From Terriglobia bacterium (lineage in GTDB: Bacteria; Acidobacteriota; Terriglobia; UBA7540), in assembly GCA_020072655.1 (NCBI GenBank), contig JAIQGH010000010.1:1-43435 (forward strand): 43,435 nt of DNA, given 5' to 3'. Positions 654 through 20,374 of the stretch are shown here, piece after piece. The notes under the pieces were generated by a model, which made no database searches, had not been told where the DNA came from, and saw only the letters and a program-made list of their open reading frames with translations. Numbering within the stretch: position 1 is the stretch's first letter; every line of letters starts with the position of its first letter. The position numbers were made by a program, and so were the translations under genes.

Positions 654-1830
654 CGGCCCCTCCTTTCTTCCCCGTCAACTGGAAAGAGAACTGGACTTGA
701 GTCAGGAAAACCGACGTCAGATGGCTGCTGGCAGCCTGGTCCGAGAGGCCGTAGTTCGCCCCCCACTTTACCCACTTGTTCAGATACCAGTTAAGGCCCC
801 CCATGTAGAGGTTTGTCCCTTTGTTGGGGGTATGCCGGTCTGGATTGTAGTTCTCAAGTCGGAAGATCCCCTCCCACTTCGGATTGAGCCGGTAGACAAG
901 CAAGGAATACCAGCCGCTTTTTCTCACGGCGCCATCGCGGCCCCAGATATATTCGCTGTAAACCGAAACGGGCTGTCGAATATAGGCGAGCTCGACACCC
1001 TCTCGTTGCTTGGCGAGCTTCGTTGTTCCCGTCGCGCCATCGTAATAATCTCCCGCGAGGGAAAGTCCGTCCACTGGATTGAACACAACGCGCGACGCGA
1101 AATCTTTGCGATTATTGACATCTAGAGTACTAATTCCATTTCCGTTAAAAAGGCCCACCGCGTAGGTCAGCAATGGCCTGCCGTGCCAAGCGGGAGAGCT
1201 GCCAGATACCTGAACGCCGATGTCGCGTCCTTGGTTCCCCGTGTCGCGGCCAGGCACCAGGGAATTCCCGATCATCGAGCGCTCGATGGGCATCCACTTG
1301 TCGTCGGAGATCAAGTTCTCCTGGCTGAACGGAATCTTGAATTGCCCGAAGGTCAGCTTGGCGAACGGGACGTAGGCAAAATCGACGCTGGCATCCAGGA
1401 GAAAGGGACTTCTCACTCCATCCGCCTGGACGTAGTAGCTGATCTTGTCCGCCAGTTTGCCATTCAATATTAGCCTGGCGCGTCGGATCTGGAGCGTATT
1501 CGGCTTGCCCGGCTCATTGCTCCACCGGGTTTGCACAAAACCCTTCGCCTCGAAAGGCAGACCATTCGCGGCAAGAGGTTCGTTCTTGGCAAGTTCCCCT
1601 GGAGGCTTCTGAGGAGGGTGCGCGAGCTCCCGGCGGGCCTCCTGTGCAGGCGTGGCTTTTTCCTGTGCAACCTCTCCGCGCAGTGCGCCGGCCTCTTCTT
1701 CAGTCACCACGTGTTTCTTGATCAACAGATCGAGCAGCAGATCCAGTTCGGACGCCGAGGCCGATTGCACCCCTAAGAGCACGGCGAGCGTCACGACATG
1801 TGCCAGCGCACGGAAAAAACGGGTCGTCAT
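646..1830 (-). CDS. Phosphate-selective-type (OprP/OprO-like) outer-membrane porin
   Basis: Predicted 394-residue outer-membrane beta-barrel of the porin O/P family. A signal peptide (about 1-27, ending ASAS) is followed by a short charged helical segment (about 28-75, LLIKKHVVTEEEAGAL), then the barrel with the family's pattern: KGFVQTRW, IRRARLILNGKLADKISYYVQ, TFGQFKIPFSQE, GRDTGNQGRDIGVQV. It ends in an alternating strand, VFLTQVQFSFQLTGKK. The ATG at 1828-1830 was chosen because AAGGAGGAGA lies just upstream and the signal peptide begins there; longer reading frames lack a signal. It is coupled by 8 bp to a sulfonate-type binding-protein gene, so it may serve as the outer-membrane entry for that anion rather than for phosphate. 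This pairing argument is inference. Confidence 0.85.
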   Translation of the reverse strand: MTTRFFRALAHVVTLAVLLGVQSASASELDLLLDLLIKKHVVTEEEAGALRGEVAQEKATPAQEARRELAHPPQKPPGELAKNEPLAANGLPFEAKGFVQTRWSNEPGKPNTLQIRRARLILNGKLADKISYYVQADGVRSPFLLDASVDFAYVPFAKLTFGQFKIPFSQENLISDDKWMPIERSMIGNSLVPGRDTGNQGRDIGVQVSGSSPAWHGRPLLTYAVGLFNGNGISTLDVNNRKDFASRVVFNPVDGLSLAGDYYDGATGTTKLAKQREGVELAYIRQPVSVYSEYIWGRDGAVRKSGWYSLLVYRLNPKWEGIFRLENYNPDRHTPNKGTNLYMGGLNWYLNKWVKWGANYGLSDQAASSHLTSVFLTQVQFSFQLTGKKGGAGE

Positions 1831-2032
1831 TACCACTGTCTCCTCCTTGGGATTGGCGGCGTCACGCCTCCAGGCGCGTGGTGAGCGGGCCGGAATGAGC
1901 TTTGAGGCGCTCCCGTGCCGAGGGGGCGCGCTGAAAGGGTTCCTGGTCACCAGACCTCGGAACTTGCTCGCATCGAATTGCGGGCCGATTCGGGAGCCCT
2001 CCTTACCAGTGTGAGAAAACTCGGGAAGAACG

Positions 2033-2443
2033 CTATTTCCGACGACCCAGGTCGGCGAGGGAGGTGCGGTCCACGATGCGCGAAGCGGCATTGCGAACGT
2101 CGAGGAACAGGCGATATAGCGGCCGATGCTTCCTATCGCGCGCCACGAGCCGCCGGAGCGACTGCGCATCTCCAAAGGGCGCCAGCGGCCCATCAATGGT
2201 CCGAATAATCTCACCGAGATAGATGCGGCTGGGCGGCCGCCGCAAGCGGTAGCCGCCCCTGGCGCCGCGCTCGCTTTCTACCAACCTGGCCCGCTTGAGC
2301 TCCAAAAGGATGAGCTCCAGGAATTTCTCCGGAATGTGCTCTGTGGAGGCGATTTCGTGAATCTTTGTCGTCCGGTCCGGATGTCTCTTCGCGAGCACCA
2401 TCATTGCTTCCAGCGCGTACAGGCCTTTTCTGGAGATTTTCAT
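2033..2443 (-). CDS. Rrf2-family transcriptional regulator without Fe-S cysteines
   Basis: 136-residue Rrf2 winged-helix regulator. The N-terminal MKISRKGLYALEAMMVLA, the recognition-helix region IPEKFLELILLELKRARLV and the wing ERGARGGYRL are typical. The three cysteines that hold the Fe-S cluster in IscR/NsrR (expected around residues 90-105) are absent, so this is not a cluster sensor of that kind. Cysteine-free Rrf2 proteins include CymR, a regulator of sulfur assimilation. The gene lies upstream of, and in the same direction as, the porin/sulfonate-binding-protein pair (202-bp gap), which makes a sulfur-source regulator plausible but unproven. A dyad 16 bp before the start may be its own operator. 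Confidence 0.85.
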   Translation of the reverse strand: MKISRKGLYALEAMMVLAKRHPDRTTKIHEIASTEHIPEKFLELILLELKRARLVESERGARGGYRLRRPPSRIYLGEIIRTIDGPLAPFGDAQSLRRLVARDRKHRPLYRLFLDVRNAASRIVDRTSLADLGRRK

Positions 2444-2459
2444 GACGCCTTTACAACGA

Positions 2460-2480
2460 AGTCTATCGGGTAAGTAGACT
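2460..2480. promoter_or_regulatory. Candidate Rrf2 operator dyad
   Basis: A 21-bp inverted repeat with 6-bp arms (AGTCTA and TAGACT) separated by TCGGGTAAG, 16 bp upstream of the Rrf2 start codon. The position suits autorepression. No second copy was found before the porin gene, so a wider role is not supported. Confidence 0.4.
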
Positions 2481-2662
2481 ATTTCCTGGAGGCTGCGGTT
2501 GTCAAGGAGCTTTCGCTCTTGAAAATGAAAACAGGCAGCATCTATCACGAAGTCGCGAGACGCTGGAATGCGGGTTGTAGGGGGGAGGCGACCACTCCTG
2601 ATTCCCCTCCCTAACAAGGCGGGGACTAAGAGATGGCTGCGGCGTGCTGAGACATTAACTTC

Positions 2663-3643
2663 TTAACTTTCCTCGCCCTCGGGCAGGAACACACTGGCGG
2701 CGCCAAAGATTCCGACGTTTTTCCGAAGCTTGGCCGGCAGCAAGGGGATCCTTGCTGCAAACCGCCGATTGATTGTGTATTGCGGGATTGTGTGGCGGAT
2801 CTTGTCAAAGAGGGGTTTGCCGATGTTTGCCACCCCGCCACCGATGACGATGGCCTCCGGGTCGAGCAACGTAATCATGCCTGCCAACCAGACTCCCAGA
2901 AAGAAGCCCGTCTCCTCAATAATTTCACAGGCGATGGGGTCGCCCTTTGCCGCGGCGTCTTGAATCATGCGCGGCGTGATCTGACTCAGGTGGCCGCGCG
3001 TCAGGTCTCGCAAGAGGCTGGGGGCGGTGTGTTCCTGCTCGAGCCGCACGCGCGCGCGCCGGGCCATCGCCGGCCCCGCGGCCAACGCCTCGATGCAGCC
3101 CAGCGTGCCGCATCCGCACCGGTACGGGCTGCGATAATCAATGGACACGTGTCCGCCTTCGCCAGCCACGCCGTCCTTACCGTGATAGATTTTCTTGTTG
3201 ATGATGATTCCCGTTCCGATGCCGGTGCTGACGGTTACGTAGAAGACGTCGCGGTAGCCGACGGCGGCGCCAAAGAGGACTTCTGCCAAACCGGCGGCGT
3301 TCGCGTCGTTCTCCACTTTGGCCGGCAATCCGAATTTCTTCTGCACCCGTTTGGCCAAGAGGATATTCCGCCAGCCCGGAAGGTTAGGAGGGTTGATAAC
3401 CAGCCCCGTCTTGGGATTGAGGGGGCCGGGCGCGCACATTCCGATCCCCTCGATGCTCTCCTTGCCGCCCGCCTGTTGGAGAAGACTCTCGATGACGGTC
3501 AGGATCTGGCCGAAGCTGGTCTCAAAACCTTCCTCGGCCCGCGTCGGCACGATGAGCGACTGCACGAGGCGGCCCTTCAGGTTGACGAGCCCCCCAGCAA
3601 TCTTGGTCCCTCCGACATCGATTCCCACTACCAGCTTTGGCAT
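2663..3643 (-). CDS. ROK-family sugar kinase (glucokinase-like)
   Basis: 326-residue cytoplasmic ROK kinase, phosphorylating a hexose with ATP. The phosphate-binding motif GIDVGGTK is at residues 7-14. The catalytic aspartate is in VENDANAA (D113). The ROK zinc site is complete: GEGGHVSID (H165) and CGCGTLGCIE (C176, C178, C183). The last of these also carries the glutamate of the sugar-binding EXGH/CGCGxxGCxE signature. No N-terminal helix-turn-helix is present, so it is an enzyme and not a NagC/XylR-type repressor. It lies 22 bp behind an FHS-type sugar transporter on the same strand, so the pair likely imports and phosphorylates one sugar, most simply glucose. The ATG at 3641-3643 is the family's usual start. 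Confidence 0.9.
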   Translation of the reverse strand: MPKLVVGIDVGGTKIAGGLVNLKGRLVQSLIVPTRAEEGFETSFGQILTVIESLLQQAGGKESIEGIGMCAPGPLNPKTGLVINPPNLPGWRNILLAKRVQKKFGLPAKVENDANAAGLAEVLFGAAVGYRDVFYVTVSTGIGTGIIINKKIYHGKDGVAGEGGHVSIDYRSPYRCGCGTLGCIEALAAGPAMARRARVRLEQEHTAPSLLRDLTRGHLSQITPRMIQDAAAKGDPIACEIIEETGFFLGVWLAGMITLLDPEAIVIGGGVANIGKPLFDKIRHTIPQYTINRRFAARIPLLPAKLRKNVGIFGAASVFLPEGEES

Positions 3644-8663: not shown

Positions 8664-9182
8664 ATGGCAGAAAAGAACAAAGACAGGAACTCGCACGGCA
8701 GGATGGAAAGTGGCCTCGGCGGGATTCTCAGGGGCCTGGGAGACCTGTTGGAGAGGCTCAACGAACTAGCCCAAACCGGTCAAGAGCTCTCCAAGACCGG
8801 GGAAATCCGCGGGCCCGGAGGACAGACCCGAGGAATTTACGGGTTCAGTGTCAAGGTCGGGCTGGGAGATGAGAGCCCTCGCATCGAGCCCTTTGGAAAC
8901 ATTCGCCGCGACATCAAATCCGGACGAACCGAGGTTCAGGAGGTCCGCGAGCCCATGGTCGATGTTTTCGAGGAAGACGACTATCTCCTGGTTTTGGCGG
9001 AGTTGCCAGGCATCGGCAAGGAGGACGTGCGGATTGACCTCAAGGACGATGTGCTGACGATCTCCGCCGAGCACGGGGACAAGAAATACCGCAAGGAGGT
9101 TCTCCTGCCCCGCAGTGTGTCCAAGGAAAGGATGCAGGTTTCGTGTAACAACGGGGTTTTGGAGATCAAGTGTCCTAAGTAG
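8664..9182 (+). CDS. gvpH: GvpH, Hsp20-type small heat shock protein
   Basis: 172 residues. The N-terminal half (1-100) is Gly-rich and amphipathic (GLGGILRGLGDLLERLNELA), as in GvpH proteins. The C-terminal half is an alpha-crystallin-like domain: REPMVDVFEEDDYLLVLAELPG, then KEDVRIDLKDDVLTISAE and NNGVLEIKCPK. The C-terminal IXI tail of classical Hsp20 is absent, ending at CPK. Known family role: GvpH is an accessory chaperone-like gas vesicle protein. Here it begins 4 bp after the broken activator and is followed by the CDC48 ATPase, so two protein-quality-control factors open the gas vesicle operon. Confidence 0.85.
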   Translation: MAEKNKDRNSHGRMESGLGGILRGLGDLLERLNELAQTGQELSKTGEIRGPGGQTRGIYGFSVKVGLGDESPRIEPFGNIRRDIKSGRTEVQEVREPMVDVFEEDDYLLVLAELPGIGKEDVRIDLKDDVLTISAEHGDKKYRKEVLLPRSVSKERMQVSCNNGVLEIKCPK

Positions 9183-9202: not shown

Positions 9203-11356
9203 ATCGATACCGGCGGGAAGTCCCTCAAGCTCAAAGTCAGCGAAGCCCTCAGCAAGGACGTGGCCCGCGCGTACGCCCGCATGGGACCGGAGGACCTCGC
9301 GGGATTGCGGGCGGAAGTGGGCGACATCGTGGAAGTGGCCGGTAAGGCCCGGACCGTCTGCAAGGCGATGCCGGCGTACAAGGAGTTGCGCGGTCAATCG
9401 CGGGTTCAACTGGACGGGCTTGCCCGAGAGAATGCCGGGACGGGGCTGGATGAGTTCGTTCAAGTGCGCAAGATCGCTTGTCCACCCGCCGAGCGGGTCG
9501 TGCTGGCCCCGGCCAATATCACTCCGTCCGACCGCGATTTGGATTACATCGGAAGCCGGCTCGACGGTCTCCCGGTTCTGGCGGAGAACCGCATTCGGGC
9601 CATCCTCTTCGGAGCGCGCTGGGCGGACTTCAGGGTGGAAAGCACGGTGCCCAAGGGTCCCGTGCTCATCAACCCGACGACCCAACTGGTGATCTCCAAG
9701 GAGACCCAGCCTGAGGAAACGGCCACCCGTGCGGTTTCTTATGAGGACATCGGTGGCCTGAAGCCGCAACTCCTACGCATCCGCGAAATGATCGAACTGC
9801 CTCTCAGATATCCTGAGGTCTTCGAGCGCTTGGGGATTGACGCACCGAAAGGTGTGCTCTTGCACGGACCTCCCGGATGTGGCAAGACCCTCATCGCCCG
9901 TGCGATTGCGCATGAGACTCAGGCGAGCTTCTACGCGGTTAGCGGCCCCGAAGTCATCCACAAGTTCTACGGGGAGAGTGAGGCCCACTTACGGAAGATC
10001 TTCGAGGAGGGCAGTCGTAAGGCCCCCAGCATCATCTTCCTGGATGAGATCGACGCCATTGCCCCCCGACGCGAGCAAGTGGTGGGCGAGGTCGAAAAGC
10101 GCGTCGTTGCCCAACTCTTGGCGTTGATGGACGGGCTCGCCAAGCGCCGGAAGGTCATCGTCATCGCGGCGACCAATCTACCCAACGTGCTGGACCCGGC
10201 CCTGCGGCGGCCAGGGCGGTTCGACCGGGAGATTGCCATTCCCATTCCCGACCGCAACGGACGCCAAGAAATCCTGGAGATCCACAGCCGGGGTATGCCG
10301 CTGGCGGAGAAAGTGGATCTCCCTCGCTTGGCAGAGATCACGCACGGTTTTGTGGGAGCCGACCTGGAAGCGCTTTGCCGCGAAGCGGCGATGATTTGCC
10401 TGCGGCGCATCATGCCCAATGTCGACTTTGGATTGGCGCGCATCCCTTACGACCAATTGGCCAAACTGGAAGTGGAGATGGACGATTTCCTGGACGCCCT
10501 GCGGGATATCGAGCCCTCCGCGATGCGCGAGGTATTTGTCGAAGTTCCCAATGTGCGTTGGCGGGACGTCGGGGGCTTGGCCGAGATCAAAAGGCGCCTC
10601 GTGGAAGCAGTCGAGTGGCCTCTCCGGCATCCCGAGTTGTTCGCTCAGGCAGCGATCCGTCCGCCCAAGGGAATCCTGCTATCGGGCCCCCCGGGCTGCG
10701 GAAAAACGCTTCTGGCCAAAGCCGTCGCCAGCGAAACGCAAGTGAATTTCATCTCGGTCAAAGGGCCGGAGTTGATTTCTAAGTACGTCGGGGAATCCGA
10801 ACGGGGGGTGCGGGAGGTCTTCCGCAAAGCGCGCCAGGCCGCGCCCTGCATCGTGTTTTTCGATGAGATCGACGCGCTCGTTCCCAGCCGTGGAGCTGGC
10901 GCCTCGGACTCGCGCGTGGGGGAGCGCGTCTTGAGCCAGTTTCTCGCGGAACTGGACGGTGTGGAAGAACTGAAAGGCGTTCTGATCCTCGGCGCGACCA
11001 ACCGGGTGGATTTACTCGACCCCGCGATTCTCCGGCCGGGGCGGTTCGATGAGGTGGTGGAGATTCCGCTGCCGGGGGAGAACGAGCGTAGCGAGATTTT
11101 TGCCATCCATTTGCACAACAAACCTCTCGGCCCAGGGATTAGCTTCGAGCACCTGGCCTCCCAGACCGACGGGTTTAGCGGCGCCGAAATCGGCTCGCTG
11201 TGCATTCAAGCTGCTCGCCGCGCCGTTCGGCGAGCCGTGCAGGCGGGCGAAAACACACCCGCCGACCAAGTGCGGGTGACGATCGAGGCCCACGACCTCG
11301 CGGCGGCGCTGGAAGAAACTCGGCAGCAAACTCTTCGAGGGATGGGGGAACAATAG
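9203..11356 (+). CDS. CDC48/VAT-type AAA+ ATPase with two AAA domains
   Basis: About 717 residues. The N-domain (1-150) has the CDC48/VAT double-psi barrel pattern: LKVSEALSKDVAR, VGDIVEVAGK, VQLDGLARENAGTGLDEFV. D1 has GPPGCGKT (about 222-229) and IIFLDEIDAI. D2 has GPPGCGKT (about 495-502) and IVFFDEIDAL, plus arginine fingers in LRRPGRFDRE and LRPGRFDE. The family unfolds or extracts protein substrates using ATP. The start is unusual. Homology reaches back to 9203 and GGAGGAG lies 5 bp before an ATC there, but the first ordinary start in frame is GTG 9260, which would remove about 19 residues of the N-domain. A rare AUC start, or a mutated ATG, is the best reading. It is followed without gap by a gvpF/L gene. 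Confidence 0.88.
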   Translation: MDTGGKSLKLKVSEALSKDVARAYARMGPEDLAGLRAEVGDIVEVAGKARTVCKAMPAYKELRGQSRVQLDGLARENAGTGLDEFVQVRKIACPPAERVVLAPANITPSDRDLDYIGSRLDGLPVLAENRIRAILFGARWADFRVESTVPKGPVLINPTTQLVISKETQPEETATRAVSYEDIGGLKPQLLRIREMIELPLRYPEVFERLGIDAPKGVLLHGPPGCGKTLIARAIAHETQASFYAVSGPEVIHKFYGESEAHLRKIFEEGSRKAPSIIFLDEIDAIAPRREQVVGEVEKRVVAQLLALMDGLAKRRKVIVIAATNLPNVLDPALRRPGRFDREIAIPIPDRNGRQEILEIHSRGMPLAEKVDLPRLAEITHGFVGADLEALCREAAMICLRRIMPNVDFGLARIPYDQLAKLEVEMDDFLDALRDIEPSAMREVFVEVPNVRWRDVGGLAEIKRRLVEAVEWPLRHPELFAQAAIRPPKGILLSGPPGCGKTLLAKAVASETQVNFISVKGPELISKYVGESERGVREVFRKARQAAPCIVFFDEIDALVPSRGAGASDSRVGERVLSQFLAELDGVEELKGVLILGATNRVDLLDPAILRPGRFDEVVEIPLPGENERSEIFAIHLHNKPLGPGISFEHLASQTDGFSGAEIGSLCIQAARRAVRRAVQAGENTPADQVRVTIEAHDLAAALEETRQQTLRGMGEQ

Positions 11357-12175
11357 GTGGAGCAGAATCCGAGGGCGCTTTATCTGTTTTGCTTTGCGCG
11401 CTCGAGCCTCCTCGGCGAAATTGAGGGCGCCGGTGTGGATGGGCACGAGCCGCTTGGCCTCTTTCGACACTCGGCAGATCTCTGTGCCGTGGTGAGTGAA
11501 GTGCCTCGGGAAGATTTCTGCGGCCCGGCGGCCGACGCCCAAATACAGCAACTGGCTTGGGTGGGTCCGCGCGCCCTGCGGCACGAGGCCGTCGTCGAGC
11601 AGGTGATGCGTCGTTCTCCCGTGCTCCCTGCCCGCTTCGGAACCCTCTTCTCGTCCAAGGAAAGCCTGGCGGAATTTCTGGATATCCATCGCCAGCGCAT
11701 TGCGCAGTTTCTGGAGCGGGTGACCGGCCAAGAGGAATGGTCCGTGAGAGGCTTGCTGCGCAGAAAACAAGCCGGAGAGGCCCTGATAGCAGCGAGTCAG
11801 GTGGCTCAAGAGGCGGAGTTGGCGACGCTGCCTCCGGGAACCCGCTACTTCCAGGAAAAACACATCCGCGCGGAGGCGGAGAAAGGATTGAGCCGCTGGC
11901 TCGACGAAACCTGCCGCGAAGCCGCAAACACCCTCTTGAAGCAGGCTTCGGACTTTCGCGAATGCCAGGTCCTGCCTCTCGAGCCCCCGGAAAGCGGGGC
12001 CGAGGTCGTGCTGAATTGGGCCTTTCTGTTGCCGCGCGACGCCGCCGCGGCATTTCGAACGCTCGTCAAGGGGCTGAGTTCTCGCCTCGCGCCTCAAGGG
12101 CTGGTCTTCGAGCTCTCCGGGCCCTGGCCCCCTTATCGCTTTGTTCCGCCTTTAACGATGGGAACGGCCCCATGA
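11357..12175 (+). CDS. gvpL: GvpF/GvpL-family gas vesicle protein (copy 1)
   Basis: 272 residues starting at a GTG that directly follows the CDC48 stop codon. Family features: N-terminal ALYLFCFAR strand, ADLCAVVSEV, the HEAVVEQVM helix with PARFGTLF just after it, a central basic/acidic coiled region, and the C-terminal LSGPWPPYRFVPP signature of GvpF/L. The family provides minor shell-associated and GvpA-binding proteins needed at an early step of vesicle formation. F and L cannot be separated on sequence alone. The stop overlaps the start of the next family member (ATGA). Confidence 0.9.
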   Translation: MEQNPRALYLFCFARSSLLGEIEGAGVDGHEPLGLFRHSADLCAVVSEVPREDFCGPAADAQIQQLAWVGPRALRHEAVVEQVMRRSPVLPARFGTLFSSKESLAEFLDIHRQRIAQFLERVTGQEEWSVRGLLRRKQAGEALIAASQVAQEAELATLPPGTRYFQEKHIRAEAEKGLSRWLDETCREAANTLLKQASDFRECQVLPLEPPESGAEVVLNWAFLLPRDAAAAFRTLVKGLSSRLAPQGLVFELSGPWPPYRFVPPLTMGTAP

Positions 12176-12915
12176 GTTACTTGCTTTACTGTATCCTCCG
12201 CAGCCCAGTGCAACCGGGAGCCGGATTCCCTCGAGGTGTCGGAGGGAAGCCTGTCTTTGTAATGGCTCACGATGGTCTGAGCGTCGGGCTTTCGGAGGTT
12301 GCGGAGTCCGACGCCGCCCCCGATATCTCGGAGGTCCTTGCCTATGAAGCAGTCGTGGAGCATTGGTTTCGCGACCGAACCGTCATCCCCGTGCGGTATG
12401 GATGCCGGCTTGAAGATGCGGCGGAGGTCCGTCGATTACTGGAGAGGCACTGCGATGAATACGGTGCGCTTCTCAACGAACTGGAGAACATGGCGGAGAT
12501 GGGTATCCAAGTTCTTCTTGACCATTCTAGAAGTGCAGCAGAGAACCACGCGCGGCCTGTCACTCCAAAATCCTTTCGCCTTTCCTTTCGCTCCGGTGCC
12601 GCCTACCTAGCGGCGAAACGCCAACGCTACCAAGGCCTGGACCGGACAACATCGCGCGAGCGCCGCTTGGCAGAGGAGCTTTGCGATGGCCTGAGCGGCC
12701 TCTTTGTTCGCCGCAAATTAGAACTCCCTGAGACGAGCCGGGGCCGTCTCCCGTCCCTTTACTTCCTCGTGCCGCGAGCTTCGGTTGAAGCCTTTCGCAA
12801 AGCTGTCCGTCAACTCGGTGCTAAAGAGTCGCGCAAGCTGCTCTTGAGCGGTCCCTGGCCGCCTTACAACTTCGTGGATTCTCTCGAAATGTGGCCGGAC
12901 ATTCAGACGCCATGA
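12172..12915 (+). CDS. gvpL: GvpF/GvpL-family gas vesicle protein (copy 2)
   Basis: 247 residues. MSYLLYCIL opens it, then AYEAVVEHWF, VIPVRYGCRLED, YLAAKRQRYQ, LYFLVPRASVEAFR and the closing LSGPWPPYNFVDSL. The start ATG 12172 overlaps the preceding stop by 4 bp, so the gene is translationally coupled to copy 1. It is the last gene before the 390-bp promoter region of gvpA, so the genes from 6818 to here form a unit upstream of gvpA. It may be GvpL or GvpF; the family placement is firm, the letter is not. Confidence 0.9.
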   Translation: MSYLLYCILRSPVQPGAGFPRGVGGKPVFVMAHDGLSVGLSEVAESDAAPDISEVLAYEAVVEHWFRDRTVIPVRYGCRLEDAAEVRRLLERHCDEYGALLNELENMAEMGIQVLLDHSRSAAENHARPVTPKSFRLSFRSGAAYLAAKRQRYQGLDRTTSRERRLAEELCDGLSGLFVRRKLELPETSRGRLPSLYFLVPRASVEAFRKAVRQLGAKESRKLLLSGPWPPYNFVDSLEMWPDIQTP

Positions 12916-13305: not shown

Positions 13306-13524
13306 ATGGCAAAGGTCCAGAAGTCGACTGACTCCTCGAGCCTGGCTGAAGTCGTCGATCGGATTCTCGACAAGGGGATCGTGATCGACGCCTGGGCGAA
13401 GGTCTCGCTCGTCGGGATCGAGTTGCTGTCGGTCGAAGCCCGCGTCGTGATCGCCTCGGTCGAGACCTACCTGAAGTACGCCGAGGCCATCGGTCTGACA
13501 GCCACTGCTGCGGCTCCTGCCTAA
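13306..13524 (+). CDS. gvpA: Gas vesicle major structural protein GvpA
   Basis: 72 residues, the usual GvpA length. The core [21 protein letters not shown] is followed by [31 protein letters not shown], giving the alpha-beta-beta-alpha fold that polymerises into the gas-filled, gas-permeable shell ribs. The ATG at 13306 has GGAAGGAGA 6-8 bp upstream, one of the strongest ribosome-binding sites in the window, fitting high expression. It is preceded by a dedicated promoter region and followed by a strong hairpin that would let gvpA mRNA accumulate over downstream genes. It is the only full GvpA copy; gvpS and gvpJ are minor paralogues. Confidence 0.97.
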
Positions 13525-13630: not shown

Positions 13631-13921
13631 ATGGGCAAATTGTTGGAGGACATGACTCGGCTGGCTGGCGAGGTCCAGGAGTTGCGCGGAAGACGCCAGG
13701 TGTTCAGGAAGGAACTCGCCGTCGGCAACCGGGATCGCCAGATGGACGTTTTCGAAATGTGCGCAGATTTCGCCGGCACTCAGAGACAGATCGCACAGGG
13801 GGCCAAGGAAGAGCGTTTGGCCTTTTTGAAGAATCTGAGACGGACCGTCGGTGGGCTGCAAAAGGGCATGAGGACAGACCTTGCTGCCGCGCGCCGCGTC
13901 TGGGCTGGCCGGGGGGCGTAG
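13631..13921 (+). CDS. Small helical gas vesicle-associated protein A (candidate GvpC analogue)
   Basis: 96 residues, not recognised by name. It is almost entirely predicted helix, rich in Arg/Glu/Gln, without Cys pairs or membrane segments. Phe-containing units recur after Arg: RRQVFRKEL (21-29), RQMDVFEM (36-43) and RLAFLKNL (62-69). It aligns without gaps over 93 positions to the protein at 14098, sharing for example MG.L..D.TRL..E (1-14), RL..... V.GL (62-76) and RTDL...R..W (81-91). Located right behind gvpA, where GvpC sits in cyanobacteria, and built of amphipathic repeats like GvpC, it could be a shell-reinforcing protein. That role is inference. It has GGAGGG 6 bp before the start. 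Confidence 0.75.
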   Translation: MGKLLEDMTRLAGEVQELRGRRQVFRKELAVGNRDRQMDVFEMCADFAGTQRQIAQGAKEERLAFLKNLRRTVGGLQKGMRTDLAAARRVWAGRGA

Positions 13922-14097: not shown

Positions 14098-14535
14098 ATG
14101 GGCGTGCTGACTCGCGACCTGACTCGATTACGAAACGAGATCCTGACCTCGCGAAATACTCGCCAGAGACTCATCCGTGATTTGGCGCAAGAGACCGTGG
14201 AGCGGCGGGCTGGCATCTCGCGGATGCTGATCGACATTTCCAAGGGCCTCGGCACGGTCGCCGGAAGAACGCGAGCCGACCGCTTGGACTCCATTTCGGA
14301 CGTCAAGCGGGCGGTTAGCGGCCTCTTGACGGAGGTTCGCACAGACCTCGGTGGCATCCGAGAAATGTGGCTCGCGCTGGGCACTCCATCGCGCCGGGTT
14401 GTGGAGGGTTTGAAGGGCCGTCCGGGAGGGGTCGCAGAGAACGTTGCGGATGAAAGCCAGCGTGAGACCCCCAGCGACTTTCCACCGGCGCACGGCCAAA
14501 GAGAGAAACGCGTGCGGAAAAAGCGGAAACGCTAG
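14098..14535 (+). CDS. Small helical gas vesicle-associated protein B, paralogue of the gene at 13631
   Basis: 145 residues. Residues 1-93 align gap-free with the preceding gene product (MG.L..D.TRL..E, RQ.....LA, RL.....V.GL....RTDL...R..W). A Pro/Gly/Glu-rich linker follows, with a strongly basic end (REKRVRKKRKR, 135-145) that the paralogue lacks. The pair arose by tandem duplication. As no other gene in the cluster could be GvpC, this is one of two candidates for an external coat protein; the basic tail could bind the acidic vesicle surface or nucleic acid. No function is established by sequence. ATG 14098 is preceded by GGGAGG at 9-10 bp. Confidence 0.75.
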   Translation: MGVLTRDLTRLRNEILTSRNTRQRLIRDLAQETVERRAGISRMLIDISKGLGTVAGRTRADRLDSISDVKRAVSGLLTEVRTDLGGIREMWLALGTPSRRVVEGLKGRPGGVAENVADESQRETPSDFPPAHGQREKRVRKKRKR

Positions 14536-14600: not shown

Positions 14601-15602
14601 ATGAATGGCGACAATGCGAAGTTGGCCTCTTGCGCTAGCGAAATGACTGGGCCGGGCGGACACAGCGTTGTGCCCGAGCCCAGCGCGGAATTCGTTTTGA
14701 CGCCGCAAATTCAAGAGCTAACGGCGCGGGCGCTGAGGTATCTGGAGGTGGGATACGCCGTCCATTTTGCCGGCCTGGCGGGAACGGGGAAGACAACGCT
14801 CGCTTTGCACGTTGCCGCGCAACTGGGCCGGCCGGTCGTGCTCCTGCACGGCGACGACGAGTTCGGAAGCTCGGACCTGATCGGCAAGGATTCCGGCTAC
14901 CGTCGGTATAAGCTCGTCGACAACTACATCCACTCAGTGATGAAGACCGAAGAGAGCCTGAGCACTCTTTGGGAGGATCACCAGCTCACCACGGCCTGCC
15001 TCAGCGGTTACACGCTCATCTACGATGAATTCAACCGTTCCCGGCCGGAGGCGAACAATGCGCTCCTCAGCATCCTGGAGGGAAGGGTTCTCAACCTGCC
15101 GAACTTGCGCCGGTCCGGCGAGGGATGCGTGCGCGTGCACGACGATTTCCGAGCCATCTTGACGTCCAACCCGGAGGAGTATGCCGGAGTCCACAAGACC
15201 CAGGACGCGCTGATGGACCGGCTCATCACCATCAACCTCGGCCACTTCGATCGTGAAACGGAGATTCAGATCGCGGAGGCGAAGTCGGGCCTTCCCCGCT
15301 CCGACGCGGAAAAGATCGTGGACATCGTCAGAGAACTTCGGGGCGTCGGGGTCAACAACCACCGCCCCACGATCCGGGCCTGCATTGCCATCGCGAAGAT
15401 CCTGGCGCGCGTCCAAAGCCGGGTGCGACTCGGGGACTCCACGTTCTGGTCGGTTTGCTACGACATTCTCAAGACGGACACGGCGAAAGTCACTCACGAT
15501 GGCCAGTCGCTGATGCTCGAAAAGGTTGAGGAAGCAATCCGGAAGGTCTGTGGGGACCATGCGAAGCGGCGGAAGAGCCATCGCCAGGAGCCTGCGGCGT
15601 GA
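14601..15602 (+). CDS. gvpN: GvpN, MoxR-like AAA+ ATPase of gas vesicle assembly
   Basis: 333 residues. Walker A GLAGTGKT (58-65), EFGSSDLIG (87-95), Walker B TLIYDEFNRS (138-147) followed by the MoxR-type insertion helix region EANNALLSILEGRVLNLP, sensor TSNP (188-191), and an arginine-finger region DALMDRL (202-208). This is the full GvpN pattern. Known role: GvpN is needed for normal vesicle enlargement and is thought to remodel or drive assembly with ATP. The N-terminal 30 residues are variable. It has AAGGA about 10 bp upstream and follows the two helical proteins by 65 bp. Confidence 0.95.
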   Translation: MNGDNAKLASCASEMTGPGGHSVVPEPSAEFVLTPQIQELTARALRYLEVGYAVHFAGLAGTGKTTLALHVAAQLGRPVVLLHGDDEFGSSDLIGKDSGYRRYKLVDNYIHSVMKTEESLSTLWEDHQLTTACLSGYTLIYDEFNRSRPEANNALLSILEGRVLNLPNLRRSGEGCVRVHDDFRAILTSNPEEYAGVHKTQDALMDRLITINLGHFDRETEIQIAEAKSGLPRSDAEKIVDIVRELRGVGVNNHRPTIRACIAIAKILARVQSRVRLGDSTFWSVCYDILKTDTAKVTHDGQSLMLEKVEEAIRKVCGDHAKRRKSHRQEPAA

Positions 15603-15615
15603 TAGGGGGACATCT

Positions 15616-15930
15616 ATGCCGATACCTCTAAGGGGCTTGCGAACCATCCGTACCTTGGCGGGTCGTCTCGACCGTGTCTGTGTTCCTCACCGGGCCCATC
15701 TACAGATCGCGTGTCTGGAAATCGAAAAGGCCCGGCGGGCCGCTGAGAGGATCAGCGCCAGCCGGCGGGTGGCCGAGCTCGATGCTCGTCTCTGCGCGAT
15801 CGAGGCCGAAGAAGCGGCCCTTTTCAAGCGTCTAGCCGACCGGAATAAAGAGAAGCCCGCCGGTCCATTGGCGGTCGGGGTGGCGCACACCCCGCCACGC
15901 GTTGCGGGGGCGCTCAGGATCCGGTACTAG
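15616..15930 (+). CDS. Small coiled-coil protein of unknown function in the gas vesicle operon
   Basis: 104 residues starting at ATG 15616, with AGGGGGA 5 bp upstream and 13 bp after gvpN. A basic N-terminus (IPLRGLRTIRTLAGRL) is followed by a long predicted coiled coil rich in Ala, Glu and Arg (EIEKARRAAERISASRR through AIEAEEAALFKRLADR, about 37-82), then a Pro/Val-rich tail. No catalytic or metal-binding motif is visible. It is not recognised as a named Gvp protein. Coding is supported by the clean ribosome-binding site and tight operon spacing. A structural or adaptor role is possible but unsupported. Confidence 0.7.
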   Translation: MPIPLRGLRTIRTLAGRLDRVCVPHRAHLQIACLEIEKARRAAERISASRRVAELDARLCAIEAEEAALFKRLADRNKEKPAGPLAVGVAHTPPRVAGALRIRY

Positions 15931-15970: not shown

Positions 15971-16273
15971 ATGTACTCGGTCAGTCATGCCTTTGAGGAA
16001 AGGAGTCGGACGCCCTTGGGCGGAGGAAATTCCGAGGAAGCGGTGGGCGGGCGAAATCGTTCCAGACCTGAACTGGTGGAATGTTCTCCCCCCCCGGCTT
16101 GCCAGACCTTGCTTGCGCGCGTCTTGGACCTCCATGCCGCGGGACACAGCGCAGAGGAGATCGCTCGGCAGGTTCTCACGACCGAGCCTGAAAATGCCAT
16201 CTTCCGGGCTGCGATGCTGGTGGAGATCATCCTTCAGTACGCCCGCGGCGCCCGAGAGGAGGAAACGCCGTGA
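15971..16273 (+). CDS. Small protein of unknown function, coupled to gvpF
   Basis: About 100 residues from ATG 15971 (a TTG at 15902 would extend it by 23). The N-terminal half is low-complexity and basic. The C-terminal half is a well-formed helical segment, LLARVLDLHAAGHSAEEIAR followed by QVLTTEPENAIFRAAMLVE and IILQYARG, whose LHAAGHSAEEIAR portion looks like the start of an HTH. No known domain is assigned. Its TGA overlaps the GTG start of the following GvpF/L gene, so it is translated as part of the operon. The start is uncertain: the AAGGA upstream would better serve an out-of-frame ATG at 15964 that ends after ten codons. Confidence 0.6.
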   Translation: MYSVSHAFEERSRTPLGGGNSEEAVGGRNRSRPELVECSPPPACQTLLARVLDLHAAGHSAEEIARQVLTTEPENAIFRAAMLVEIILQYARGAREEETP

Positions 16274-17073
16274 GCGTCAGTCAAACCGCAACGGCCAAAG
16301 GAGCGAGGAAGCAACTTCCCAACCAAGCTGCCGCGAGTGGCAGGACCTACATCTATGCAATCACGCACGATGCCGGGGTCTCGGTGTACGGCGACTGCGG
16401 CGTTGACGGACTCAAGGTGTATTCGATCCCCGTGGGCCGGGTGGCGGCGGTCGTCAGCAATGTGCCCAGCGGCAAGGTGCGCCCAGAACGTTCCCATCTC
16501 GCGGCTCATCAGGAGGTTCTCAGGAGACTCCTGGCGGACTCGACCCCCCTGCCGATGTCTTTCGGAATCCTCGCGGGCGGTCCGGAGGCGGTTCGCAAGA
16601 TGCTGGCGAGGAACCAGCCGGCGCTCGTCGAGCAACTCCGCCGCGTCGCTGGAAGGGTTGAAATGGGTCTGCGAGTTACGTGGGACGTGCCCGACATCTT
16701 CGAGTATTTCGTGAATACCCATCCGGAGCTTCGCCTCGCACGGGACCAGTTATTGGGCGGCCACCGCGAGGCGACCCAGGAGCAGAAGATCGAGGTCGGA
16801 AGGCTGTTCGAGCGTCTCCTCAATGAGGACCGGGAGGCACATACCGGCAAAGTGGAAGAGATTCTGGCGCCTCACTGCGCGGAGACCGAGCGCAACAAGT
16901 GCCGCACCGAGCGGGAGGTGATGAACCTGGCCTGCCTGGTGGCGCGCGAAGCGACACCGCAATTCGAGCGCAGCGTCTTCGAGGCCGCACAGCAGTTCGA
17001 TAACAACTTTGCCTTCGACTACAACGGCCCGTGGGCGCCTTACAGCTTTGTGGAGGTTCACCTCGAGCTCTGA
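16270..17073 (+). CDS. gvpF: GvpF/GvpL-family gas vesicle protein (copy 3)
   Basis: 267 residues. After a variable 25-residue leader, it has TYIYAITHD, VAAVVSNVP, AAHQEVLRRLL, LPMSFGILAG, a long central helical region, and the C-terminal FDYNGPWAPYSFVEVHL, the family's closing GPWxPYxFV motif. It sits directly before gvpG, as gvpF does in the Bacillus megaterium order N-F-G-L-S-K-J, which is why the F label is used. It starts at GTG 16270, overlapping the previous stop. GvpF/L proteins bind GvpA and nucleate or cap the growing vesicle. Confidence 0.92.
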   Translation: MSVSQTATAKGARKQLPNQAAASGRTYIYAITHDAGVSVYGDCGVDGLKVYSIPVGRVAAVVSNVPSGKVRPERSHLAAHQEVLRRLLADSTPLPMSFGILAGGPEAVRKMLARNQPALVEQLRRVAGRVEMGLRVTWDVPDIFEYFVNTHPELRLARDQLLGGHREATQEQKIEVGRLFERLLNEDREAHTGKVEEILAPHCAETERNKCRTEREVMNLACLVAREATPQFERSVFEAAQQFDNNFAFDYNGPWAPYSFVEVHLEL

Positions 17074-17096: not shown

Positions 17097-17393
17097 ATGG
17101 TGCTCATCGACGACCTCCTGATGTTTCCGGTGCGTGGTGTGCTCTGGATTCTCCGGGAAATTCACAACGCCGCCCAGGAGGAACTCGCGAGCGAGGCGGA
17201 CTCGATCACGGCCGAACTGAGCAATCTCTACATGCGGCTCGAGACCGGCAAGATCTCGGAGGAGGAGTTCGCCGCGGAGGAAAAGGTTCTCCTCGAACGG
17301 CTGGAAAGAGCCCAAAGGCGCGATGCGGGCCTCGCAGCAGAGGAAGCCGGAGAAGAACTGGAAGAGCAAGACGTGAAGAAACGTGTCGCCTAA
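17097..17393 (+). CDS. gvpG: Gas vesicle protein GvpG
   Basis: 98 residues. It opens with the GvpG hallmark VLIDDLLMFPVRGVLWILR, followed by IHNAAQEELASEADSI and the helix LSNLYMRLETGKISEEEFAA, a pattern diagnostic for the family. A charged coiled-coil tail rich in Glu ends it. GvpG is a small accessory protein thought to help assemble the GvpF/L complex. It lies 23 bp after the third gvpF/L gene. The next gene, the tandem ArsA-like ATPase, begins within or just after its end. Confidence 0.95.
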   Translation: MVLIDDLLMFPVRGVLWILREIHNAAQEELASEADSITAELSNLYMRLETGKISEEEFAAEEKVLLERLERAQRRDAGLAAEEAGEELEEQDVKKRVA

Positions 17394-17412: not shown

Positions 17413-19365
17413 ATGAACGAGGCAACCCCTTCGTTTCTGGATTACCGAGGCTTCCAACTGCTTATCTTCGGGGGAAAGGGCGGGGTTGGAAAGACGACTT
17501 GCGCCACAGCCGCGGCTCTCCGCTTGGCGCAAGGCGCGCCCGCGTTGTCTTTTCTCCTGGTTTCCACTGACCCGGCCCATTCTCTCGCGGATAGCCTCGC
17601 CGGTTTGCGTCCACCCGGCAATTTGAAAGTGCTGGAACTGGACGCTCGCGAATACCTCGCCGCATTCAAAAGGGCCCACAACGATCAACTCCGGGAAATC
17701 GCCTCCCGGGGAACTTTTCTCGATGACGAGGAGATCCGCCGCTTCCTGGACCTCTCCTTGCCGGGCTTGGATGAGCTGATGGCCTTTCTGGAGATTTCCA
17801 GGTGGGTGGAGAATCGCAGCTACGATTGCATCATCTTGGATACGGCCCCCGGTGGACACACGCTGCGCTTGCTGGCCATGCCGGCATTTCTCCGCAAATG
17901 GTTGAACATGCTGGACGCGCTGTTAGCCAAGCACCGGTACATGAAGTGGGCTTTTGCGCGCTCCGCTCACCGCGATGAGCTCGATTCCTTCCTCGAGGAG
18001 CTCGGGGCCTCGGTCGAACGCATGGAGGAACTGCTCTGCGATCCGGCCCGTTGTCGCTTTGTCCCGGTAATGCTGGCCGAAGCCATGAGCATCCGCGAGA
18101 CCGTTGCGATCGTGAAAGAAGTGGAACGTCTCCAACTGCCGATAGACGAAATCGTGATCAACCGCCTCTATCCCGACAATTCCTGCGCGCTCTGCCGGGA
18201 TGAACGGCTCCGCCAGCTCCGCGAACTGCGCAATGTCCTTCGCCGAACCTGCTTATCCCGCTATGCACTGTGGGCAGTCCCGCTTTACGCCGAGGAGGTC
18301 CGCGGGCAGAAGGCTTTGGAGTCATTCTGGGCGAGTGCCGCGCGGATTACCCAGGCTCCTCGCGAGGAACGCGGCCTCCCGGCATTGCCGGCGCTCGGGG
18401 TCGAGGCAGCAGCCCGCTGGCCTCCACCCGCGGCAACCCTGCTGATTTTCGCGGGCAAGGGGGGAGTGGGGAAGACCACGCTGGCGTGCGCCACGGCCCT
18501 GCAACTGGCCGAGAACGCAGTAGAGAAGGATGTCCTTCTCTTCTCGACGGGACCCGCTCACTCGCTGTCAGGTTGTCTTGGGCTTTCGATCGATTCACGG
18601 CCGAGGGCCGTCGCGTCCGGCCTCGCGGCCATGCAGATTGATTCGGAGGCGGAATTCGCGGCTTTGAAACAACATTACGCGGGAGACATTGCGCGCTTCC
18701 TGGAATCGCTCTCCAGCCAGTTTGACTTGACCTTCGACCGCGAGGTCCTCGAAAGGATTTTGGATGTTTCCCCGCCCGGCCTGGACGAAGTGATGGGCCT
18801 GACCCGCGTCATGACGCTGCTCGCTTCGGGTCGCTACGAGGTTCTCGTTCTCGACTCCGCCGCGACCGGGCACCTGATTCGCCTGCTGGAGCTTCCGGAA
18901 ATTATCGATCAGTGGCTCAAACTCTTCTTCGACCTCTTCTTGAGATACCAGCAGATCTTTCGCCTGACCCGGTTCTCTCAAGAACTGGTAACGATGTCAA
19001 AGAACCTCAAAAGTCTGCGGGCGCTGCTGACCAACCCGGCGAAGACCGCTCTCTACGCCGTCAGCATTCCAACCGACATGGCGCTTGAGGAGACGCAGGA
19101 TCTCGTGGCCGCCTGCGAGCGCCTGGGCATCCGCGTGCCCGGATTGTTTCTCAACCTCGTGACCCCGCTCAGGGATTGCGAGCTGTGTTCTGCCTTGCAC
19201 CGCAGGGAGTCTCTCGTGCGTAAGAAATTTCAACAGAGTTTTTCGGACCGGGATCTCACCGTAGTTTATCGTCGCGGAGAGATGCGGGGCCTTTGCCGGC
19301 TTGGAGAACTCGGCAGGGCTCTTTTCGAGAGGGCGCCCGCGGAATCGAGTGCCTATGTCGCTTGA
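17413..19365 (+). CDS. Tandem ArsA/Get3-like ATPase
   Basis: 650 residues: two ArsA/Get3 units joined head to tail. Unit 1 has the deviant Walker A FGGKGGVGKTT (about 19-29), switch I DPAHS (53-57), switch II LDTAPGGHT (142-150) and CALC (258-261). Unit 2 has AGKGGVGKTT (347-356), STGPAHS where the catalytic Asp of DPAHS has become Gly (380), DSAATGHL (481-488), and CELC (589-592). The Asp to Gly change suggests that the second site binds but does not hydrolyse ATP. No arsenite-binding Cys triad or arsenic genes are near, so a membrane/protein-targeting-type role within vesicle biogenesis is more likely than arsenic export. ATG 17413 is chosen, but an upstream GTG at 17383 overlapping gvpG is possible. 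Confidence 0.9.
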   Translation: MNEATPSFLDYRGFQLLIFGGKGGVGKTTCATAAALRLAQGAPALSFLLVSTDPAHSLADSLAGLRPPGNLKVLELDAREYLAAFKRAHNDQLREIASRGTFLDDEEIRRFLDLSLPGLDELMAFLEISRWVENRSYDCIILDTAPGGHTLRLLAMPAFLRKWLNMLDALLAKHRYMKWAFARSAHRDELDSFLEELGASVERMEELLCDPARCRFVPVMLAEAMSIRETVAIVKEVERLQLPIDEIVINRLYPDNSCALCRDERLRQLRELRNVLRRTCLSRYALWAVPLYAEEVRGQKALESFWASAARITQAPREERGLPALPALGVEAAARWPPPAATLLIFAGKGGVGKTTLACATALQLAENAVEKDVLLFSTGPAHSLSGCLGLSIDSRPRAVASGLAAMQIDSEAEFAALKQHYAGDIARFLESLSSQFDLTFDREVLERILDVSPPGLDEVMGLTRVMTLLASGRYEVLVLDSAATGHLIRLLELPEIIDQWLKLFFDLFLRYQQIFRLTRFSQELVTMSKNLKSLRALLTNPAKTALYAVSIPTDMALEETQDLVAACERLGIRVPGLFLNLVTPLRDCELCSALHRRESLVRKKFQQSFSDRDLTVVYRRGEMRGLCRLGELGRALFERAPAESSAYVA

Positions 19366-19642
19366 AACCAAGCCCGGAAGCCGGCCTGCCGTCTTTTCCG
19401 AACTGGCGCTGGAGGACAGGCGGCAGGTCTCCTTGTGCGAGGTGCTCGACCGGGTGCTGAACAAAGGCGTGGTGGTGACCGGTGAAGCAACGATCTCGGT
19501 CGCCGATATTGATCTGATTTACCTCGGGCTGCAGATCGTACTCACCTCCATGGAGACGGCGCGCGCGAGCGTTGGCCGAGTGCCGGTCAGGTTGGGCGCC
19601 GGTCTCGGCGTTAGAAAGGAGAGAGCGAGTGGGATCACCTGA
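19355..19642 (+). CDS. gvpS: GvpS, minor GvpA paralogue
   Basis: 95 residues. The GvpA-type core runs VSLCEVLDRVLNKGVVVTG, then EATISVADIDLIYLGLQIVL and TSMETA. The IDLIYLGL stretch resembles GvpS of Bacillus megaterium (VDLVYLDL) more than GvpA. N- and C-terminal extensions are non-conserved. It starts at ATG 19355 inside the last codons of the ArsA-like gene, and its own end is overlapped by gvpK, so translation is tightly coupled. GvpS/J/M proteins are low-copy relatives of GvpA thought to form the vesicle tips or nucleation complex. The S assignment rests on short-range likeness and on the S-K-J gene order. Confidence 0.88.
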   Translation: MSLETKPGSRPAVFSELALEDRRQVSLCEVLDRVLNKGVVVTGEATISVADIDLIYLGLQIVLTSMETARASVGRVPVRLGAGLGVRKERASGIT

Positions 19643-20006
19643 GTTGGCCCAAATCGAGTCGAACGCCCCGAGTGATTTTGCCCAGGTGATGAAGGTGCGC
19701 CCCGTACCCGAACCGGGGTCGCGCGGGGTCCAGCGCGTCCGGCCCGCCCGCCTCAACCTGGACGCGAACCACACTAAGAATGGGCTCGGACAATTGGTGC
19801 TGACTCTGGTCAAACTCCTTCACGAATTGTTGGAGCGCCAGGCCATTCGCCGCATCGAGGCCGGCGCTTTGAATGACGAGCAGATTGAACGGCTCGGACT
19901 GACGCTGATGAGGCAAGCTCAGGAGATCGAGCGTCTCCGAAAAGAATTTGGCCTGGAAGAAGAGGATCTCAATCTCGCCCTCGGCCCGCTCGGTAATCTC
20001 TTGTAA
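19629..20006 (+). CDS. gvpK: Gas vesicle protein GvpK
   Basis: 125 residues. After a variable 40-residue leader comes the GvpK core: RLNLDANHTKNGLGQLVLTL, VKLLHELLERQAIRRIE, LNDEQIERLGLTLMRQAQEI and FGLEEEDLNLALGPLG, the family's closing motif. GvpK is a conserved accessory protein required for vesicle formation. The GTG start at 19629 has AGGAGAG 5-6 bp upstream and overlaps the gvpS stop by 14 bp. A longer upstream reading lacks a ribosome-binding site. Confidence 0.95.
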   Translation: MGSPELAQIESNAPSDFAQVMKVRPVPEPGSRGVQRVRPARLNLDANHTKNGLGQLVLTLVKLLHELLERQAIRRIEAGALNDEQIERLGLTLMRQAQEIERLRKEFGLEEEDLNLALGPLGNLL

Positions 20007-20017
20007 AAGGAGAGCTC

Positions 20018-20374
20018 ATGGCGCAGCAACGCAGCATGTTACACGCGGTGGAAAGTTCAACCTTGGCGGACGTGCTGGAGCGTGTCCTGGACAAAGGGGT
20101 CGTCATCGCGGGCGATATCCGAGTGAAGCTGGTCGATATCGAGCTTCTGTCGATTCAAATCCGCCTGGTCATCTGCTCGGTGGACAAGGCCAAGGAAATG
20201 GGGATGGACTGGTGGGTCAACAACCCCATCTTTCGCCGGGAGGAAGACCACGGAACCTTGGCGAGCTCCCTCAGCAATATCGAGGAAAGGATGGCGAGGC
20301 TGGAAGCTTGCTTGACCAAAGAGGAAACCGTGAACGAGCCCCGACCCACGAGCGCCTCTCGGCCAGGATCGTGA
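20018..20374 (+). CDS. gvpJ: GvpJ, minor GvpA paralogue
   Basis: 118 residues. STLADVLERVLDKGVVIAGD and VKLVDIELLSIQIRLVICSV form the GvpA-like core. The extension carries the MDWWVNNPIF motif typical of GvpJ-type paralogues, then a charged helix IEERMARLEACL and a disordered Pro/Ser-rich tail. It follows gvpK by 11 bp with AAAGGAGA before the ATG. Likely a low-abundance vesicle cone or nucleation protein. It is the last recognised gvp gene; the hybrid kinase starts 8 bp after its stop, showing they share a transcript. Confidence 0.93.
   Translation: MAQQRSMLHAVESSTLADVLERVLDKGVVIAGDIRVKLVDIELLSIQIRLVICSVDKAKEMGMDWWVNNPIFRREEDHGTLASSLSNIEERMARLEACLTKEETVNEPRPTSASRPGS

Follow-up and report, generated by a model that had tools for sequence, protein, structure and literature searches.

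A tandem ArsA/Get3-like ATPase in a gas-vesicle operon with glycine for the switch I aspartate of its second unit, and a possible one-site role in vesicle assembly

The locus

The window (the whole stretch of 43,435 nucleotides that was analysed) contains a gas-vesicle (gvp) operon, and within it a gene at 17413..19365 on the plus strand that encodes a tandem ArsA/Get3-like ATPase of 650 aa. The frame is open, the Pfam family ArsA_ATPase (PF02374) matches the protein twice (E 4.7e-110 for the whole protein), and TIGR00345 scores 363 bits against a cut-off of 135; an in-frame GTG upstream, at 17383, is a possible alternative start. An earlier note, made from the sequence alone, had located this gene and its motifs exactly. 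It had also described the ATPase as "fused within" the gvp set: the gene does stand among gvpG, a GvpA-family gene and gvpK, but there is no fusion.

On the same strand, the upstream part of the operon encodes an Hsp20/GvpH-like protein (8664..9182; PF00011 E 1.2e-8, PF05455 E 1.8e-7), a CDC48-family AAA ATPase (9260..11356; TIGR01243 852.8 bits, over the cut-off), two gvpF/L products (11357-12175 and about 12172-12915; PF06386), the main shell protein GvpA (13306..13524; PF00741 E 1.5e-16, with close matches in related operons), GvpN (14601..15602; TIGR02640 333.7 bits, over the cut-off of 266.8), a further GvpF/L (16270..17073; PF06386 E 1.6e-66) and, directly upstream of the ATPase gene, GvpG (17097..17393; PF05120 E 1.7e-18). 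The ATPase gene is followed, again on the plus strand, by a GvpA-family gene of the GvpS/J type (19355..19642; PF00741 E 5.9e-17), gvpK (19629..20006; PF05121 E 3.5e-31) and a second GvpA-family gene (20018..20374; PF00741 E 5.3e-17), and the order around the ATPase is F-G-ArsA-A-K-A. The end of the ATPase gene overlaps the start of the first of these GvpA-family genes by 11 nt, which suggests that the translation of the two is coupled.

Four small genes complete the operon, two between gvpA and gvpN (13631-13921 and 14098-14535) and two between gvpN and the gvpF/L gene at 16270-17073 (15616-15930 and 15971-16273). None of the four has a family match in protein-family profile searches; several have counterparts in related operons, at about 30-70% identity. 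The CDC48-family ATPase and the Hsp20 protein recur in this operon type and, with GvpN, this makes three ATPases in a single gvp operon. The genes examined outside the operon include those for a sigma-54 response regulator, a hybrid histidine kinase, transporters of the ABC-2 and MFS types, a TetR regulator and a multicopper oxidase. Profile scans find no arsenic genes among the window genes examined, either in or outside the operon.

Motifs and structure model

The roles of the motifs can be taken from Get3. According to the excerpted text of PMC10248533, the switch I Asp holds the attacking water in position, an Asn of strand beta-7 selects adenine, and the ATP of each subunit is contacted from across the dimer by its partner's first GKGG lysine. 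According to that of PMC12506534, the D57N form of yeast Get3 is seen in a closed state, and it binds ATP but does not hydrolyse it.

In unit 1 of the window protein we find the P-loop GKGGVGKT at residues 21-28 (17473..17496, plus strand as for all motifs here; K22 is the intradimeric lysine and K27 that of Walker A), the catalytic Asp53 of switch I in STDPAHS (17569..17571; role as in the same excerpts of PMC10248533 and PMC12506534), switch II as DTAPGGH (17839..17859) and the CxxC motif CALC (18184..18195). Unit 2 has the same P-loop at residues 348-355 (18454..18477), with K349 as the intradimeric lysine, and its own CxxC, CELC (19177..19188). Its switch I reads STGPAHS, with Gly380 (18550..18552) at the expected position of the Asp, and its switch II is altered to DSAATGH (18853..18873) as compared with DTAPTGH. 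The adenine-selecting Asn is retained in both units in the alignment. The Get3 pattern, intradimeric Walker A with DPAHS and DTAP, is thus present in unit 1 and lacks the Asp in unit 2, with a Get3-type CxxC in each half. These readings of the translation bear out what the earlier note had said of the motifs: the KGGVGKT loop and CxxC kept in both units, the Asp to Gly change and the altered switch II in unit 2. Since five full-length and three partial relatives have the same Gly, an assembly or sequencing error at Gly380 is ruled out.

The AlphaFold2 model of the protein is of moderate quality (pLDDT 80.5, pTM 0.77, 16 sequences). Its whole chain superposes on ArsA 9nbw with Z 26.4 over 534 residues (rmsd 4.5), and its unit 2 on Get3 3zq6 with Z 28.6 over 278 residues (rmsd 3.8). 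The best whole-chain Foldseek matches are ArsA structures, and the nearest PDB sequence is the tandem ArsA1 of Chlamydomonas (5zme/5zmf). Large hydrophobic residues make up 0.49 of the 55 residues that follow switch II in unit 2 of the Gly clade described below, as compared with 0.32 and 0.35 in arsenic ArsA; in Get3 this stretch leads into the client-binding helices. This enrichment is suggestive only, because the difference in mean hydropathy over the same residues is small (0.09 versus 0.03 and -0.11).

Survey of relatives

We collect relatives by whole-genome searches of overlapping sets, namely the window's family (39 genomes), order (40), class (399) and phylum (327) and the order of genome G509 (257). 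In addition, a scan of named genomes gives 593 stretches (best 80 of 146 confirmed), a sample in which the tandem proteins are mostly arsenic-type. The yield is at least 48 tandem proteins of the gvp type that are long enough for use and at least 27 of the arsenic type. The motif survey uses 60 tandem proteins (48 gvp-type, 12 arsenic-type) in alignments of 52 and 8 rows; 15 of the 27 arsenic-type rows are not carried into the 52-row alignment. Left out of the counts are L050/L181 (assembly gap in unit 1), L051/L182 (frame break between the units), L052/L183 (5' part missing, no gvp match on the contig), L040/L173 (ends inside unit 2) and the fragments L035 and L043.

GKGGxGKT is intact in both units of all 60 aligned rows (52 + 8). 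The switch I Asp of unit 1 is present in 59 of the 60 proteins and in 47 of the 48 gvp-type rows; the only absence is in L205, whose unit 1 reads STGPSHT and whose intact unit 2 keeps DTAP in its switch II. The Asp of unit 2 is present in 52 of the 60 and missing in eight, with Gly in the window protein, L047, L048, L049, L066, L067 and L201, and a two-residue deletion in L070. None of the 60 has lost the Asp in both units. The gvp-linked L205 lies at about 1495-3345 on the minus strand; L205 and L201 come from one genome each, where a base error is possible.

In the window's subclade, Gly is found in unit 2 of all six full-length members and of all three partial ones (L050, L051, L052). Within the window's clade, every member of which has CxxC in both units, unit 2 shows no variation in its P-loop, Asn and CxxC. 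Relatives at 48-57% identity (L069, L088, L071, L089 and others) keep DPAHS in unit 2, so the Gly marks a subclade and not the family. The earlier note had called for a survey of the Gly and had counted homologues with DPAHS in unit 2 against its reading; such homologues exist, and this tells by half against it, the Gly being diagnostic of the subclade only. A family-wide Gly is rejected, as most other gvp-type rows and all arsenic-type rows keep the Asp, the latter in both units in 27 of 27 among the matches listed.

Changes in switch II of unit 2 are more widespread. Throughout the window's clade, including Thiohalocapsa L089, a Ser, Cys or Ala takes the place of the switch II Thr. In another gvp-type clade, of 13 rows (L075-L087), unit 2 of all rows has DPAPS with DMAPTGH, which is again a one-sided change. 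The aligned arsenic rows have DTAPTGH in both units (12/12). The CxxC is absent in some gvp-linked relatives (L029, L033, L091, L094, L095).

Phylogeny and selection

In a tree of the 52 rows, to which the sequences of Castillo and Saier do not belong, the 40 gvp-type rows stand apart from the 12 arsenic rows with support 100/100. The six Gly rows form one clade (100/99) that adjoins five Asp-keeping rows (99/91), and L070 and L089 fall outside both groups. A tree of 25 rows with the later finds again gives the six Gly rows as one clade (100/100) and places L201, with its Gly in unit 2, among Asp-keeping rows; its starred branches require at least two separate changes to Gly in unit 2. L205 is a long branch in this tree and its exact place is unsure. 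In a tree of single units, the 48 unit 1s and the 48 unit 2s of the gvp type form two unmixed sets (local support 0.83 and 0.40), from which it follows that the order of the units is old. The units of L205 group with the unit 1s and the unit 2s respectively, so that a domain swap is rejected and the loss there is a true reverse one. Taken from the alignments and trees, one-sided loss of the Asp would have occurred about four times, in the main clade, L201, L070 and L205, the last three in one genome each.

Selection on the two units is compared with Nei-Gojobori estimates of omega for 10 pairs in all. Units 1 and 2 give 0.169 and 0.155 for the window and L047, 0.155 and 0.151 for the window and L048, 0.244 and 0.192 for L047 and L048, and 0.174 and 0.172 for L066 and L067. 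The values for the window with L049 (0.110 and 0.164) and with L067 (0.123 and 0.143) are less sure, with dS above 1. Purifying selection acts on unit 2 as strongly as on unit 1, and a unit of no further use would not be expected to evolve in this way.

Operon context of the relatives

The context survey takes in 38 gvp-type genes with usable flanks, the window and 37 loci; ten gvp-type rows with short flanks (L076, L078, L079, L081, L083-L087 and L176) are outside it. Genes of the gvp set adjoin 37 of the 38, the exception being L092 (Lyngbya). The co-occurrence with gvp clusters that the earlier note had proposed to survey holds, and the tandem ArsA is a fixed part of the operon. The order F-G-ArsA-A-K-A is found in the window and in 19 of the 37 loci, and most other loci have F-G-ArsA-F-A-F-K or ArsA-F-A-F-K. 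One locus, L028 (225-10645, in G226, a genome of the phylum that is 77% complete), matches the operon in every gene except the ATPase, which is missing between gvpG and the GvpA-family gene. Since this operon is otherwise identical, the ATPase is dispensable in at least one lineage. A dead site is not required for the job, because Asp-keeping relatives occupy the same operon.

Two Chlorobiaceae gvp clusters (L094, L095) have a single-domain ArsA/Get3 homologue instead, without CxxC, between the Hsp20 gene and the CDC48-like AAA gene. Genome G659 has two different gvp operons, on contigs C13 and C36 (L185, L186), both with a tandem ATPase that keeps the Asp in unit 2. The ArsA fragments at the ends of contigs C3 and C6 of G000 (L001, L004) are apparently one single-domain ArsA split by the assembly, of which related genomes hold relatives of about 415 aa with DPAHS.

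A possible mechanism and its alternatives

We turn our attention to how such a protein could work. The tandem ATPase is probably a chaperone. We give an even chance to a more specific reading, in which it is a gas-vesicle assembly ATPase of the two-domain gvp-linked ArsA family and forms a Get3-like pseudo-dimer from a single chain; one of the sites would hydrolyse ATP and the other would bind it in a regulatory role. Both units would bind ATP, and the chain would close on two ATP. Unit 1 would hydrolyse its ATP using Asp53 and the lysine K349 provided in trans by unit 2, while unit 2, with Gly380 and its altered switch II, would hold ATP without normal hydrolysis, by analogy with Get3 D57N, and act as the half that regulates and binds the client. 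The two CxxC motifs together may form one pivot around zinc. With a single hydrolysis per cycle, the pseudo-dimer would then open and hand a hydrophobic GvpA-family subunit on to GvpF/G/K. Of the possible clients, we infer the GvpA-family proteins encoded in the operon to be the most likely, either the co-translated GvpS/J type or GvpA itself. The motifs, the place in the operon, the conservation in the subclade, the selection on unit 2 and the repeated one-sided loss of the Asp speak for this reading; the operon L028 without the ATPase and the Asp-keeping relatives in the same operon speak against it.

While it is possible that both sites hydrolyse, with another residue or a water network in place of the unit 2 Asp and the protein working as an ordinary tandem ArsA/Get3, we consider this rather unlikely. 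The Asp-keeping and Gly forms do share operon, order and selection, and in the excerpts of PMC10248533 the degenerate Get3d proteins still hydrolyse ATP, NosGet3d having Glu at the Asp position. Glycine, however, has no side chain; in yeast Get3 the change of Asp to Asn stops hydrolysis (PMC12506534, excerpts), and switch II of unit 2 is altered too.

The agreement of the omegas makes it unlikely, to our mind quite strongly so, that unit 2 is simply decaying, with the protein working through unit 1 alone. The changes of the unit 2 switch II in many Asp-keeping relatives could resemble stepwise erosion, and one member (L070) has a deletion; yet the P-loop, Asn and CxxC of unit 2 do not vary in the clade and no full-length member has lost unit 2. 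An ATP-independent holdase, switched by redox or zinc, in which the CxxC pairs are what counts and the ATPase serves just for fine adjustment, is improbable. It would fit the invariant CxxC in both units of the clade and the holdase role that oxidised ASNA1 has in the excerpts of PMC9803280, but it accords poorly with the unit 1 Asp kept in 47 of 48 gvp-type rows and with the gvp-linked relatives that have no CxxC. The family name, the two-domain layout like that of E. coli ArsA and the best whole-chain Foldseek matches would suit an arsenite or other anion pump ATPase that stands in the gvp operon by chance, a role we reject as highly improbable on operon content (no ars gene in the window scans, and gvp linkage of the gvp-type tandem genes), on model score (148.7 bits for the arsenic ArsA model TIGR04291 against a cut-off of 650) and on the absence of nearby ArsD and ArsB, which occur in 1/11 and 3/11 clade genomes, all on other contigs. 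The earlier note had named linked arsenic genes as evidence against its proposal, and on this count the proposal stands.

Returning to the one-site assembly ATPase, we tentatively extend it, with somewhat less than an even chance, to the gvp-linked tandem ArsA proteins in general. These may repeatedly have become one-site machines in which the silent half, whichever of the two it is, keeps a structural ATP and the other fires once per client, giving a single-stroke loader of amphipathic shell subunits. The question addressed is how the very hydrophobic gas-vesicle subunits stay soluble and get loaded. The role of the ArsA-like ATPase in gvp operons has been a bare suggestion since 2010, and a natural, conserved, one-sided inactivation offers a clean handle on it. 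It also touches the general question of whether Get3/ArsA dimers need two hydrolytic sites. Gas vesicles serve as ultrasound reporters, and the assembly factors matter for their expression in new hosts.

Comparison with known systems

Two-domain ArsA proteins in gvp operons of four phyla were published in 2010 by Castillo and Saier (PMC2963123), who, in the excerpted text, suggest that the gvp-linked ArsA energises vesicle biogenesis. The window protein resembles their clusters 4 and 6 as excerpted: two-domain proteins of about 640 aa in gvp operons without ars genes, some with Hsp20; an acidobacterial cluster is among those described. The same excerpts state that the motif copies of the two units show no significant difference and that the (S/T)(T/S)DPA submotif is a trait of all ArsA homologues, list changes only at the Pro and describe no loss of the switch I Asp. 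The window protein differs in that unit 2 has STGPA, and the submotif is therefore not in both domains. We found no report of one-sided Asp loss in gvp-linked ArsA in the open-licence literature. The gvp link of two-domain ArsA is long known; as far as we have seen, a recurrent silent half under selection is new. In the excerpts of PMC11445434, on the operon of Bacillus megaterium, a chaperone role towards GvpA2 is proposed for GvpF and perhaps for GvpG, and GvpA2 is connected with GvpL through GvpS, K and J; a term count in the accessible text of that paper finds no mention of ArsA.

With the E. coli-type arsenic ArsA the window protein shares the tandem layout, and ArsA structures are the closest over the whole chain. 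Arsenic ArsA differs in having a switch I of the DPASN/DPAAH type, no CxxC and both Asp kept (27/27 among the matches listed), and it lies in ars operons. Judged by motifs, the window protein has the DPAHS/CxxC pattern of Get3 and not that of arsenic ArsA. The BagA/BagB of M. tuberculosis (6bs3), compared by fold and family listings, are a Get3-like pair of subunits A and B according to the entry title, and are encoded by two separate genes. C. reinhardtii ArsA1 (5zme/5zmf), a eukaryotic tail-anchor factor, is likewise a tandem Get3-like chain, but in the alignment its P-loop and STDPAHS are intact in both units. Get3/TRC40 itself, whose known clients are tail-anchored membrane proteins, shares the fold, the intradimeric P-loop lysine, DPAHS, DTAP and CxxC; it is a homodimer with two identical active sites, whereas the window protein is one chain with one intact site.
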